DNA of 64,000 bases, taken from the NCBI GenBank assembly GCA_949297765.1, contig CASFTV010000002.1, positions 62,001 through 126,000 on the forward strand. Reading direction: 5' to 3'. Source of the stretch: an uncultured bacterium. Lineage in GTDB: Bacteria > Verrucomicrobiota > Lentisphaeria > Victivallales > UBA1829. Made by a program: the position numbers and the translations under genes. Below the pieces are notes generated by a model. It was not told the DNA's origin. It worked only from the letters and a program-made list of their open reading frames with translations, and ran no database searches. Below are positions 41,448 through 45,715 of the stretch, piece after piece; position 1 is the first letter of the stretch; the number at the start of each line of letters is the position of its first letter.

Positions 41448-42686
41448 ATGACGGAAAGTTTTCTTCAGAAAGCCTTTGCACAGCGCATCGGCGGCGAAAC
41501 CTTCGGCAAGGATACCAAAATCTATAAATTTGAAAAGATCAAACGCGCGAAACGCGAGGCGATGGCAAAGAATCCGGGCGTGAAACTGATCGACATGGGC
41601 GTCGGAGAACCCGATGACATGGCGTTTCCCGCCGTCGTCAAGGCACTGCAGGAAGAGTGCGCGAAATGGGAAAACCGCATCTACGCCGACAACGGAGTCG
41701 CGGAATTCCGTGAGGCGGCGGCACGCTATATGAAGTCCCTCTACGGAGTCGAACTGGATCCCGTGACCGAGATCTGCCATGCGATCGGCAGCAAGTCCGC
41801 GCTGACCCTGCTTCCGGCCTGCTTCATCAATCCGGGAGATGTGACGGTCATCACGATTCCGGGCTATCCCGTTCTCGGAACCTGGACCGAATATCTCGGC
41901 GGAGAGGTCGTGAAACTTCCGCTGCTGGAGGAAAACGGATATCTGCCGGATCTCGAATCCCTCACCGCGGATCAGCGCAGACGCGCAAAACTGCTCTACC
42001 TCAACTATCCGAACAATCCCACCGGCGCTTCCGCCACCGTTGAATTTTTCACGAAGGCGGTGGAGTTCGCGAAAAAGAATGAACTGCTCATCGTCAGCGA
42101 TGCGGCATACGCTCCGCTGAACTTTGTCGGCAAACCGCTGAGCATCCTTTCCATTCCGGGCGCGAAAGAGGTCGCCGTGGAGCTGCACAGCATGTCGAAG
42201 GGATTCAATATGACCGGATGGCGTCTCAGCTGGGTCTGCGGGAATCCGCTGGCGGTCAAGGCGTTCGCCACCGTCAAGGACAACGCCGACAGCGGTCAGT
42301 TCATCGCCATTCAGAAAGCCGCCATCGCCGCTCTCGACGATCAGGAATCCATCACCCCGATGATCAGCGCCAAATATGAGCGCCGTCTCAAGAGCATGGT
42401 GGAAACCCTCCGGAAACTCGGATTCAATGCGAAGGTTCCGGCCGGTTCCTTCTATCTCTATGTGAAGGCCCCGAAGAGCGCGTCCGACGGAACCGTTTTC
42501 GCCTCCGGAGAGGATTTCAGCCAGTGGCTGATTAAAAATAAACTCATCAGCGCGGTTCCCTGGGACGATGTGGGGCCGTACATCCGCTTCGGCGCGACCT
42601 TTGTCGCCCGCGGCGGCCAGAAGGAGGAGGAAGAGGTCCTTGCGGAATTCGCAAGACGTCTCTCCGACGCGAAATTCACGTTCTGA
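41448..42686 (+). CDS. dapL: LL-diaminopimelate aminotransferase
   Basis: 412-aa PLP-dependent fold-type I aminotransferase that converts tetrahydrodipicolinate directly to LL-diaminopimelate, for lysine and peptidoglycan. Visible motifs: LIDMGVGEPDDMAFPAVV at the N-terminus, GSKSALTLLP, YLNYPNNPTGA, SDAAYAPLNF and the PLP Lys in LHSMSKGFNMTGWRLSW. The DapL route is characteristic of Chlamydiae, Lentisphaerae and other PVC members, some anaerobes and plants. It lies 62 bp upstream of the kinase-like gene; the two may or may not be cotranscribed. Confidence 0.9.
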   Translation: MTESFLQKAFAQRIGGETFGKDTKIYKFEKIKRAKREAMAKNPGVKLIDMGVGEPDDMAFPAVVKALQEECAKWENRIYADNGVAEFREAAARYMKSLYGVELDPVTEICHAIGSKSALTLLPACFINPGDVTVITIPGYPVLGTWTEYLGGEVVKLPLLEENGYLPDLESLTADQRRRAKLLYLNYPNNPTGASATVEFFTKAVEFAKKNELLIVSDAAYAPLNFVGKPLSILSIPGAKEVAVELHSMSKGFNMTGWRLSWVCGNPLAVKAFATVKDNADSGQFIAIQKAAIAALDDQESITPMISAKYERRLKSMVETLRKLGFNAKVPAGSFYLYVKAPKSASDGTVFASGEDFSQWLIKNKLISAVPWDDVGPYIRFGATFVARGGQKEEEEVLAEFARRLSDAKFTF

Positions 42687-42748: not shown

Positions 42749-45715
42749 ATGGAGGATGACACCAGACAGATGCCGGAACCGCCCGGAGATACGCTGGCCG
42801 GAATGGACACCGTTCCGGTCGATGTCGATGCTCTTTTCTCCGGTACGGATACCCAGGAGCAGACTACGCCGATCCGTCCGGAAAATCTCGAACTTACGGC
42901 CGACGATCTGCTCTCCTCCCTGACCCGCAAACCGCAGGATAAATATAAATTCCGCCGGAGCATCGGGCAGGGAGGCATGAAAGTCGTCATCCAGGTCAAG
43001 GACCGCGACACCACCCGCGACATCGCGATGGCGATGCTCCCGAACGCCGGAAACCGGCCGAAGGAGGAGATCCTCCGATTCATTGAGGAAGCGCGGATCA
43101 CGGCAAGTCTGGAACATCCGAACATTGTTCCGGTGCACGATATCGGCGTCGACAATTACGGATCGCCCTACTTCACCATGAAGCTGATTCGCGGAGAGAC
43201 CCTGGCTTCCGTTCTCCGGAAACTTCACGACGGCGATCCGGAGTATCTTGAAAACTATCCGCTCGACAAACTGCTCCGCATCTTCCTGAAGGTCTGCAAC
43301 GGAGTCGCCTTTGCCCACTCGAAAGGAGTGCTGCACCTGGACCTGAAGCCGGAGAACGTGCAGCTCGGCGACTACGGTGAAGTGATTCTGATGGACTGGG
43401 GACTGGCCCGTCTGGTCTCCGTCCCCGAACAGAATACCGATGCGCCTCCCGATCCCGCAATCCCGTGGACGGACAACCGGACCTGCGACGGCGTCCGCAA
43501 GGGAACCCCCGGCTACATGGCCCCGGAACAGGCCGCCGGAAAAAACAGCCAGAAAAGTTTCCGGACCGACGTCTATTCGCTCGGAGCCATTCTCTACTCC
43601 ATTCTGACCTACTGCAATCCGCTGGAGGGGAACGATGTGAAGAAATTGCTGGCCGCGACCGTCCGGGGCGCAATCGTTCCTCCGTCGCAGCGGGTTCCGG
43701 GCCGTCTCATTCCCGCCGGTCTGGAGGCGGTGGTCCTCAAGGCAATGGCGCTTCAGCCGGAAAAGCGGTATTCCGGCGCAAAGGAACTCCGCAACGAGGT
43801 TCTTGCCTATCTCAGCGGCCATGCAACCCATGCGGAACGGGCAACCTGGATGAAAAAGGCTTTTCTTCTGATGCGGCGTCACCGGATCACCTCCATTGCG
43901 GTCGCGGTCGCGCTCCTGCTGGGGCTCGGAACGGGCATTTACGCCGCGATCGACTACGATCTCCAGCATGGCGACTGGATCTCCGTCTATGATGCGGATT
44001 TCCGGAAGGAGGATCTTTCGGAGAGTTTCTCCTGCTATGACGCGTATCTGAAGGAGGAGAGAAAAATCTGGACCAGAACTCCCGACGGACTGAAGGTCCA
44101 GCCGGGGGAATGGCTCTGGCTGACGGATCCTAAAATCAAAGAGAATGTCCGCGTGGTGATGGCTTTTTCCACGACCTCCTCGGGGGGAGGGATCGACATC
44201 TGCATCAACGCGCGCCGTCTGCCGGTCCGCACCTGGCGCGATTTTCCCTGCGGATACGGCGCCCGGATCAGCGGAACCGCAAACGGAATGGATCAGATTT
44301 TGAAAAATGAGTCGCAGAGTTCCGCTCCGGAGATGATTTCCGCTTCTCCGGCGGGAACGGACCGGTCCGGAAAACGGATCCATACGGTTGAATTCATCCG
44401 CCGCAGCGACCGTCTGTCTCTCAAAATCGACGGAATGGAGATTTCGGCAACCGATTTGTTTCCGTTCGCGGGACGCGATTATGCGTCGATCGGAGTCCGT
44501 TCGTTTGATTCGTCGATCCGGATCCGGAGTCTGCGGGTCTGCCGCCTGACGCTGCCGCAGAAGTCGAGCCCGGTCGTCGCGGGAGACTCGCTGGTGGAGA
44601 CCCGGCATTTCGCCGACGCGATCGAAAAGTACCTGACCATTGCGGACGACTATGTGCGCGGCCCGGTTGCCGAAGAGGCGCTCGCAAAGGCCTATGTGAC
44701 GGCGGCGTCGCATGTGAGCGATCCTCAGAAACGCTCGCAGATCCTGATCGGCGTCAAGCGGCGGATCGCGTCGCGTTTCAACACGTTCGCATACCGGACG
44801 AAACTTCTGGAGATCGACGCGCTGATGCTCTGGAAGGATGAAAATTACAAATCGTCGCTTTCGATCGTGAACGACATTCTTTCGCGCAGCCCGAACAGCG
44901 GGATCATGAAGAGCATTCTTCAGCTGCCGCACACACGGCTCCCGGAGTATCTGCTGCCGGAATTTCTGGATCTTGTCGCCCGGACGCGGGATCTGACGCG
45001 CCTGAATCTTTCCAGTTACGGCATCCGGAATCTGGCTCCGCTGGCCGGGATGCGCCTGACCTATCTGAACTGCTCCGGAAACAATCTTTCCGCTCTGACC
45101 GGGCTGGAAGGAATGCCGCTGGAATATCTGGACTGTTCGGAAAACAGGATTGCTTCTCTGGAGCCGCTGCGGGGAATGCCGCTCAAGGTGGTGGCGTGCC
45201 AGATCAACCAGATTTCCGATCTTTCTCCGCTCGACACCGCCACCCTGAAGGATCTGAACTGCGCGTGGAACCTGATCCGTTCGCTGGATTCGCTCCGCAG
45301 CGTTTCTCTGGAACGGCTGGTCTGCCGCGGAAACGGAATCGAAAATCTCGCTCCGCTGCGGGGAATGCCGCTGAAAAATCTGGATGCCGGGATGAATCCG
45401 CTGGACTCGCTGGCGGTGCTCAAGGAGCTGCCTCTGGAATGGCTTCTGCTGGATGCCACGCCGGTGGAATCGCTGGAGTCGCTCCGCAGGATGCCGCTGC
45501 GGCTGCTGTCGATTGCGAACTGTTCGAACATCAAGGATTTTTCTCCGCTTCTCGGACTGCACGCTCTGGAGGTGCTGATTATTCCCCGCGGGATGGATGC
45601 TTCGATCCTCGCGGAACTGCGCCGCCGTTCCGGTCTCGTGATCCTCAACGCCGGCGAGAATGACGCCTACGGCGATCCCGACGGGTATCTCTCCCGTTCC
45701 CCTCGGAAAGAATGA
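42749..45715 (+). CDS. Membrane Ser/Thr kinase-like protein with C-terminal leucine-rich repeats
   Basis: 988-aa protein. Residues about 66-365 are a Hanks-type kinase domain: Gly loop IGQGGMKVV, catalytic loop HLDLKPEN (Asp198), Mg-binding DWG (Asp216) and APE-like MAPEQAAG. The strand beta3 motif that normally reads VAIK is IAMAML, so the ATP-anchoring Lys is replaced by Ala95. A single membrane span lies near 380-403 (SIAVAVALLLGLGTGIYAAI). A beta-sandwich-like region (about 410-600), a helical TPR-like stretch (about 610-740) and eight or nine 21-22-residue leucine-rich repeats (about 750-960, for example MPLEYLDCSENRIASLEPLRG) follow. Topology suggests a cytoplasmic kinase-like domain and exported LRRs. 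It may be a pseudokinase or use a displaced Lys. Confidence 0.87.
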   Translation: MEDDTRQMPEPPGDTLAGMDTVPVDVDALFSGTDTQEQTTPIRPENLELTADDLLSSLTRKPQDKYKFRRSIGQGGMKVVIQVKDRDTTRDIAMAMLPNAGNRPKEEILRFIEEARITASLEHPNIVPVHDIGVDNYGSPYFTMKLIRGETLASVLRKLHDGDPEYLENYPLDKLLRIFLKVCNGVAFAHSKGVLHLDLKPENVQLGDYGEVILMDWGLARLVSVPEQNTDAPPDPAIPWTDNRTCDGVRKGTPGYMAPEQAAGKNSQKSFRTDVYSLGAILYSILTYCNPLEGNDVKKLLAATVRGAIVPPSQRVPGRLIPAGLEAVVLKAMALQPEKRYSGAKELRNEVLAYLSGHATHAERATWMKKAFLLMRRHRITSIAVAVALLLGLGTGIYAAIDYDLQHGDWISVYDADFRKEDLSESFSCYDAYLKEERKIWTRTPDGLKVQPGEWLWLTDPKIKENVRVVMAFSTTSSGGGIDICINARRLPVRTWRDFPCGYGARISGTANGMDQILKNESQSSAPEMISASPAGTDRSGKRIHTVEFIRRSDRLSLKIDGMEISATDLFPFAGRDYASIGVRSFDSSIRIRSLRVCRLTLPQKSSPVVAGDSLVETRHFADAIEKYLTIADDYVRGPVAEEALAKAYVTAASHVSDPQKRSQILIGVKRRIASRFNTFAYRTKLLEIDALMLWKDENYKSSLSIVNDILSRSPNSGIMKSILQLPHTRLPEYLLPEFLDLVARTRDLTRLNLSSYGIRNLAPLAGMRLTYLNCSGNNLSALTGLEGMPLEYLDCSENRIASLEPLRGMPLKVVACQINQISDLSPLDTATLKDLNCAWNLIRSLDSLRSVSLERLVCRGNGIENLAPLRGMPLKNLDAGMNPLDSLAVLKELPLEWLLLDATPVESLESLRRMPLRLLSIANCSNIKDFSPLLGLHALEVLIIPRGMDASILAELRRRSGLVILNAGENDAYGDPDGYLSRSPRKE

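Follow-up and report, generated by a model that had tools for sequence, protein, structure and literature searches.

Does a kinase-like protein with Ala at the β3 Lys position represent a dead enzyme, or has the ATP-positioning Lys moved to another part of the fold? This question is raised by a gene at positions 42749 to 45715 of the window, the 64,000-nucleotide stretch of contig CASFTV010000002.1 that was analyzed here. We favor, with a probability of about 0.8, a model in which its product is an active PknB-type membrane Ser/Thr kinase whose ATP-positioning Lys has moved from β3 (Ala95) to the start of β2 (Lys78) in a WNK-like manner. The preliminary description of this DNA had offered two options, a pseudokinase or a WNK-like kinase that uses Lys78. 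The second gains support from family-wide co-substitution, retention of the catalytic set, and a gapless match to the Lys/Cys pair of WNK1; the evidence presented below argues against the first.

Layout of the membrane kinase and its ATP site

The features of the gene and its product are as follows (window positions).

42749 to 45715, + strand: gene for the 988-amino acid membrane kinase; ATG start, open frame, Pfam Pkinase and LRR_4
42941 to 43819, + strand: protein kinase domain with a PknB-like fold, residues 65–357 (Pfam, sequence, and model)
42980 to 42982, + strand: Lys78, the relocated ATP-site Lys at the position of PKA G55 and WNK1 Lys233 (family counts, gapless WNK1 alignment)
43031 to 43033, + strand: Ala95 at the β3 Lys position (PKA K72; Cys in WNK1; family counts)
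43088 to 43090, + strand: Glu114, the αC Glu (PKA E91; Glu in 180/180 K55 domains)
43334 to 43342, + strand: HLD catalytic motif, residues 196–198, with the HRD Arg lost and the Asp kept (Asp in 180/180)
43394 to 43402, + strand: DWG metal-binding motif, residues 216–218 (Asp in 179/180, Gly in 180/180)
43481 to 43483, + strand: Thr245, activation-loop Thr and possible phosphosite, 8 residues before the GT motif
43883 to 43966, + strand: membrane-spanning helix, residues 379–406 (hydropathy 383–401; model helix 379–406)
43976 to 44548, + strand: predicted exported β-rich (sandwich-like) region, residues 410–600 (strands in the model)
44576 to 44983, + strand: predicted helical repeat-like region, residues 610–745 (helices in the model)
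44993 to 45649, + strand: approximately eleven leucine-rich repeat (LRR) strands, residues 749–967 (LRR_4; 21-residue period)

Pfam matched the 988-amino acid open reading frame to Pkinase (amino acids 66–342; E 8e-34) and LRR_4 (E 2.4e-14); it found no PASTA domain in the protein and, at E 0.1, no match for the β-rich region between amino acids 410 and 600. Hydropathy analysis delineates a single hydrophobic span that coincides with a helix in the model, in agreement with the membrane span described at the outset. The eight or nine LRRs initially counted become approximately eleven in the full-length model, where strands recur about every 21 residues from 751 to 967 and the best match among LRR proteins is internalin A (1o6v; rmsd of 1.9 over 239 columns, Foldseek). 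This model was built from 16 full-length sequences and has a mean pLDDT of 73.4; its kinase N-lobe is poor and we therefore used a domain-only model, built from 69 sequences, for the kinase. The kinase domain would be cytoplasmic, whereas the β-rich and LRR parts would be exported and may act as a sensor. An aminotransferase-like gene lies just upstream (41448 to 42686 in the window). Within this genus and family, six loci (L018, L248–L251, and L253) have a match to it next to the kinase; two of the six, L018 and L250, are apparently one contig. The loci searched, many with short flanks, contained no match to the downstream dehydrogenase.

Examination of the ATP site bears out the residues as first read. 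Ala95 occupies the β3 Lys site within IAMAML, while the catalytic Asp198 and the metal-binding Asp216 are retained in HLD and DWG, respectively; the Arg of HRD is replaced with Leu. Lys78, within GQGGMK, lies at the third Gly of the Gly-loop, which corresponds to G55 in PKA and is the position of Lys233 in WNK1. The spacing from this Lys to β3 is the same in both proteins, with the non-Lys β3 residue 17 residues on. The Lys78–Ala95 stretch aligns with WNK1 without gaps (10/27 identities), such that Lys falls on Lys and Ala95 falls on a Cys that we take to be Cys250. The protein thus shares two traits with WNKs, a Lys at the third-Gly position in β2 and the absence of a β3 Lys, and differs from them in a third, having HLD in place of HRD. 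In WNK1, an active kinase, Lys233 from β2 replaces Lys72 (PMC4718504), and K55 is required for catalysis by WNKs (PMC1821047). Lys145 in the hinge was considered as the replacement Lys and rejected; it is found in 111 of 123 K55 members, but also in 23 of 25 close canonical relatives.

Co-substitution of Lys55 and Lys72 across the family

We aligned 367 kinase domains, comprising all domains from all loci, and removed 60 to obtain 307 distinct domains; of the 60, 18 lacked position 55 or 72, 3 had an incomplete C-lobe, 2 were short, and 37 were duplicates. Lys72 (PKA numbering) is absent from 182 of these, and 180 of the 182 have Lys55; residue 72 in the 180 is Ala (177), Thr (2), or Val (1) and never Lys. 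Conversely, none of the 125 domains with Lys72 has Lys55, position 55 being occupied by Gly, Ala, Ser, Asn, or Val. Lys72 is therefore found in 0/180 K55 domains vs 125/127 others (Fisher p ~1e-85, a value that ignores relatedness), and no half-swapped form was seen among the 307 distinct domains. The two domains with neither Lys, L013 and L099, have Val at position 55 and His or Arg at position 72; each sits on a very long branch, and other motifs of L013 are degenerate as well. The loci were gathered mostly with K55-based profiles and the K55 fraction is not a census; the evidence lies in the mutual exclusion of the two Lys residues and in the intact motifs rather than in the proportion. The invariance of Lys78 within K55-only alignments follows from how their members were selected and was left out of the evidence.

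The remaining catalytic residues are retained in the K55 set, even though pairwise identity falls to 30% (median of 42% in a sample of 3000 pairs). Glu91, His164, Asp166, Asn171, and Gly186 are each present in 180/180 domains and Asp184 in 179, the exception being a Glu. The HRD Arg position contains Leu in 167, Arg in 6, Phe in 4, and Met in 3 domains, so that Arg is lost in 174/180. Under a rule that asks for one residue in at least 80% of one group and at most 25% of the other, eight columns set the 123 K55 members apart from 25 close non-K55 relatives, including those of residues 78, 95, and 197. A hydrophobic span lies 290–362 residues past the start of the kinase domain in 122 of the 123 members; the sequence of the remaining one stops short at the edge of its contig or locus. 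The lengths of the 106 uncut members, measured from the kinase start, vary widely: 47 fall within 400 residues and contain little past the membrane span, 43 extend to 401–720, and 16 exceed 720. Pfam LRRs were detected in 3/9 K55 relatives scanned, and the other 6 had no match beyond the kinase. Given this variable outer part and the constant kinase–TM unit, the LRRs do not define the family. The swap itself, its fixation across the family, the other catalytic residues left intact, and the membrane-type span past the kinase can all be read directly from these sequences.

These results bear on three alternatives. The most serious, which we nevertheless consider unlikely, is that the proteins constitute a conserved family of pseudokinases that bind ATP or partners and signal without phosphoryl transfer. 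The usual sequence rule calls a pseudokinase when at least one of the β3 Lys, HRD Asp, and DFG Asp is missing (PMC12599244), and the protein falls under it through the β3 Lys only; loss of the HRD Arg in 174/180 members points in the same direction. However, a domain freed from catalysis would be expected to drift at its catalytic residues, whereas nearly all of them persist in 180 divergent members, and Lys55 accompanies the loss of Lys72 in 180/182 cases. A far less probable alternative holds that the fold was repurposed for AMPylation or glutamylation, reactions for which the kinase-fold proteins SelO and SidJ provide precedents (PMC12599244), and that the relocated Lys reflects an altered nucleotide pose. 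Against it, the motifs that remain, among them the Glu of APE, an Asp at 274, and an Arg at 340, match those of ordinary kinases. Finally, misalignment, sequencing error, or local mutation is refuted by the family alignment, which shows the K/A pair in 177 distinct domains spread over many genomes, and by gapless alignment to WNK1 and PknB.

The Lys swap is real and is not an isolated mutation. The preliminary description had noted that orthologs with a normal β3 Lys would point to such a mutation, but the 18 loci of the same genus or family that were read from the top matches are all K55/A72; they represent 17 places, since two lie on one contig. It had also counted the filling of the site by another Lys as an objection; Lys78 can fill it, which speaks against a pseudokinase and leaves the finding in place. 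The swap, combined with intact motifs across a large family, indicates that these proteins are probably active kinases.

Likeness to known kinases and proposed mechanism

PknB-type kinases are arranged in the order kinase, TM, exported part, and the target family shares this arrangement. The kinase-domain model (pLDDT 91.8) most closely resembles PknB (5u94; VIA Z 32.9, rmsd of 1.8, 256 residues aligned). PknB likewise ranked first in a sequence search with the whole domain, and no WNK appeared among the best 60 matches listed. The PknB/PknA-type Ser/Thr kinases are thus the closest in both sequence and fold; PknB differs in having a β3 Lys and HRD, where the target has Ala95 and HLD. An N-lobe query returned WNK1 after PknA and PknE and thinly above PknB (28.5 vs 27.6 bits), and a 36-residue query gave weak matches only, none to a WNK. 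The best 50 structural matches listed contain no WNK chain, an observation that carries no weight on WNK likeness. Whole-domain similarity points to PknB, so the parallel with WNKs is confined to the ATP site. There, both have a Lys at the third-Gly position, a non-Lys β3 residue, and the αC Glu and catalytic Asp residues; the target family differs in being bacterial, membrane-anchored, and closest to PknB over the whole domain, with Ala in β3 and the HRD Arg lost in 174/180 members, whereas WNK1 retains HRD with R348 (PMC1821047). The likeness appears to reflect convergence of a single site in an otherwise PknB-type kinase, not membership in the WNK family.

Other kinase-like families provide partial parallels. 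In the CAK-chloro subfamily, the positive charge was proposed to have moved from position 72 to 55 (R55/M72) (PMC1821047). This is a different kinase-like family in which the αC Glu is replaced with Phe, unlike the K55 set with Glu in 180/180. A study of bacterial pseudokinases defines seven families (ActPs1–3, GLW, CP1, DYD, and DLHK) and describes ones with an altered ATP-site Lys; as characterized there, none pairs a third-Gly Lys and β3 Ala with intact Asp motifs, and the main text contains no name beginning with Lentisphaer-, Planctomyc-, or Verrucomicrob- (PMC12599244). The likeness to plant receptor kinases drawn in the preliminary description holds as an analogy only. In plant LRR receptor kinases, as in the target protein, a single membrane span separates the LRRs from the kinase; here the order is reversed (kinase at 65–357, TM at 379–406, LRRs at 749–967), and only part of the K55 family has LRRs.

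How might such an enzyme work? Lys78 most likely would contact the ATP phosphates and the αC Glu114 in place of the usual Lys, and Asp198, Asn203, and Asp216 would carry out ordinary phosphoryl transfer. We infer from the conserved residues that members of the K55 family bind ATP and have kinase activity. The HRD Arg usually reads the activation-loop phosphosite, which distinguishes RD from non-RD kinases; by analogy, replacement of this Arg with Leu has probably altered control by the phosphorylated activation loop. The position of Thr245 contains Thr in 87/123 and Asp or Glu in 14/123 K55 members, and Thr in 71/104 others; this pattern is consistent with a regulatory phosphosite common to kinases inside and outside the K55 family. 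The moved Lys has been proposed to allow halide binding in WNKs (PMC4718504), and chloride and water take part in WNK inhibition (PMC11588334). It is tempting, if rather doubtful, to speculate that the space left by the Lys permits regulation by halide or water in the bacterial proteins as well, such that they would serve as chloride or osmotic sensors, present in dozens per genome in some lineages.

A 2007 survey considered WNKs the sole functional family of eukaryotic-type kinases that lacks K72 (PMC1821047). The K55/A72 proteins apparently represent a second relocation of the catalytic Lys, convergent with that in WNKs and found in bacteria. Our searches of open-access papers listed no description of a bacterial K55/A72 family by title or abstract opening. 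A kinome study of PVC bacteria specifies K, D, and D sites for a functional kinase domain (PMC11032199); this rule would discard the K55/A72 family and constitutes a blind spot, inasmuch as proteins called dead by standard rules are probably working enzymes. The family has at least 180 distinct natural sequences as well as close unswapped relatives, which makes it possible to study how a residue essential for catalysis can change place while function is kept, and whether the move of the Lys itself creates ion sensitivity.

Origin and distribution of the swap

Columns 55, 72, and 165 were left out of both trees that we constructed. The quick tree contains 152 rows thinned by identity (69/123 K55 and 83/104 other domains). 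All 69 K55 rows lie on one side of a single branch (SH-aLRT 91), and one K55 change is needed vs 50.2 expected for shuffled labels. The K55 group adjoins two G55/K72 kinases, L067 and L068, that already have HLD (SH-aLRT 90 for the join); these possibly represent the pre-swap state, and L067 has WD40 repeats (Pfam). The careful tree contains 100 rows, of which 58 are drawn from 62 K55 representatives (of 177 full ones) and 42 from 124 others. It also needs one K55 change (support 56/61), a result obtained in 58% of 200 bootstrap trees (range 1–2), with the bootstrap not settled and the exact sister not fixed. A single origin, weakly supported, is the best reading of these trees, and two origins are possible. 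The order suggested is HRD to HLD first and the swap second. HRD is kept in 6/180 K55 members, including L137 and L172 of family f76, which lies outside the class.

Genome-level searches covered one phylum. K55/A72 kinases are present in families f1, f3–f8, f13, and f24 of the class and, outside the class in the same phylum, in families f36 and f76; they were not seen in loci read from f2, f9–f12, and f14–f23, for which part of the matches were read. The genus g10, from the window's own family, may be without them: the top match in each of its 13 genomes has an E-value of just 1e-34 to 1e-58, and in G103, the sole g10 genome read, that match (L082) is G55/K72. From each outside family we took one to three genomes, 73 in total; 41 of these matched at E 1e-40, and 3/30 outside-family loci with motifs read are of the K/A type (L135–L137). 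G012, a genome of two contigs and 5.5 Mb from another family of the class, has 57 K55 domains among 69 distinct kinase domains read (L265–L352). Apart from the HRD-Arg site, one A72V and one D184E are the only departures at key positions in these 57, an expansion that does not look like decay.

A contig scan matched 77 stretches, 7 of which encode kinase relatives. Four of the 7, one from a Victivallales record and three from Lentisphaeria records, are K/A; the relatives in Pseudoxanthomonas, Tabrizicola, and Lachnospiraceae are not. Plasmid kinases matched in 309 records, the best 15 of the 309 reaching at most 35.9% identity. A loose DNA pattern for both motifs was discarded; it matched 353/387 genomes, and a backward control matched many as well.

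The target genome encodes a second kinase (G000:C1:46020-46994) that shares the Lys55, Ala72, and HLD changes. Three other kinase-like genes were observed in the same genome. L013 (G000:C11:51704-52273) is degenerate, with His at the β3 position and HGE and HFG motifs. L011 (G000:C21:6592-7344) is likewise degenerate, with HGA for HxD and EFG for DxG, and adjoins L012 (G000:C21:4996-5577), a kinase with Arg at the β3 position; the two are a candidate pseudokinase pair.
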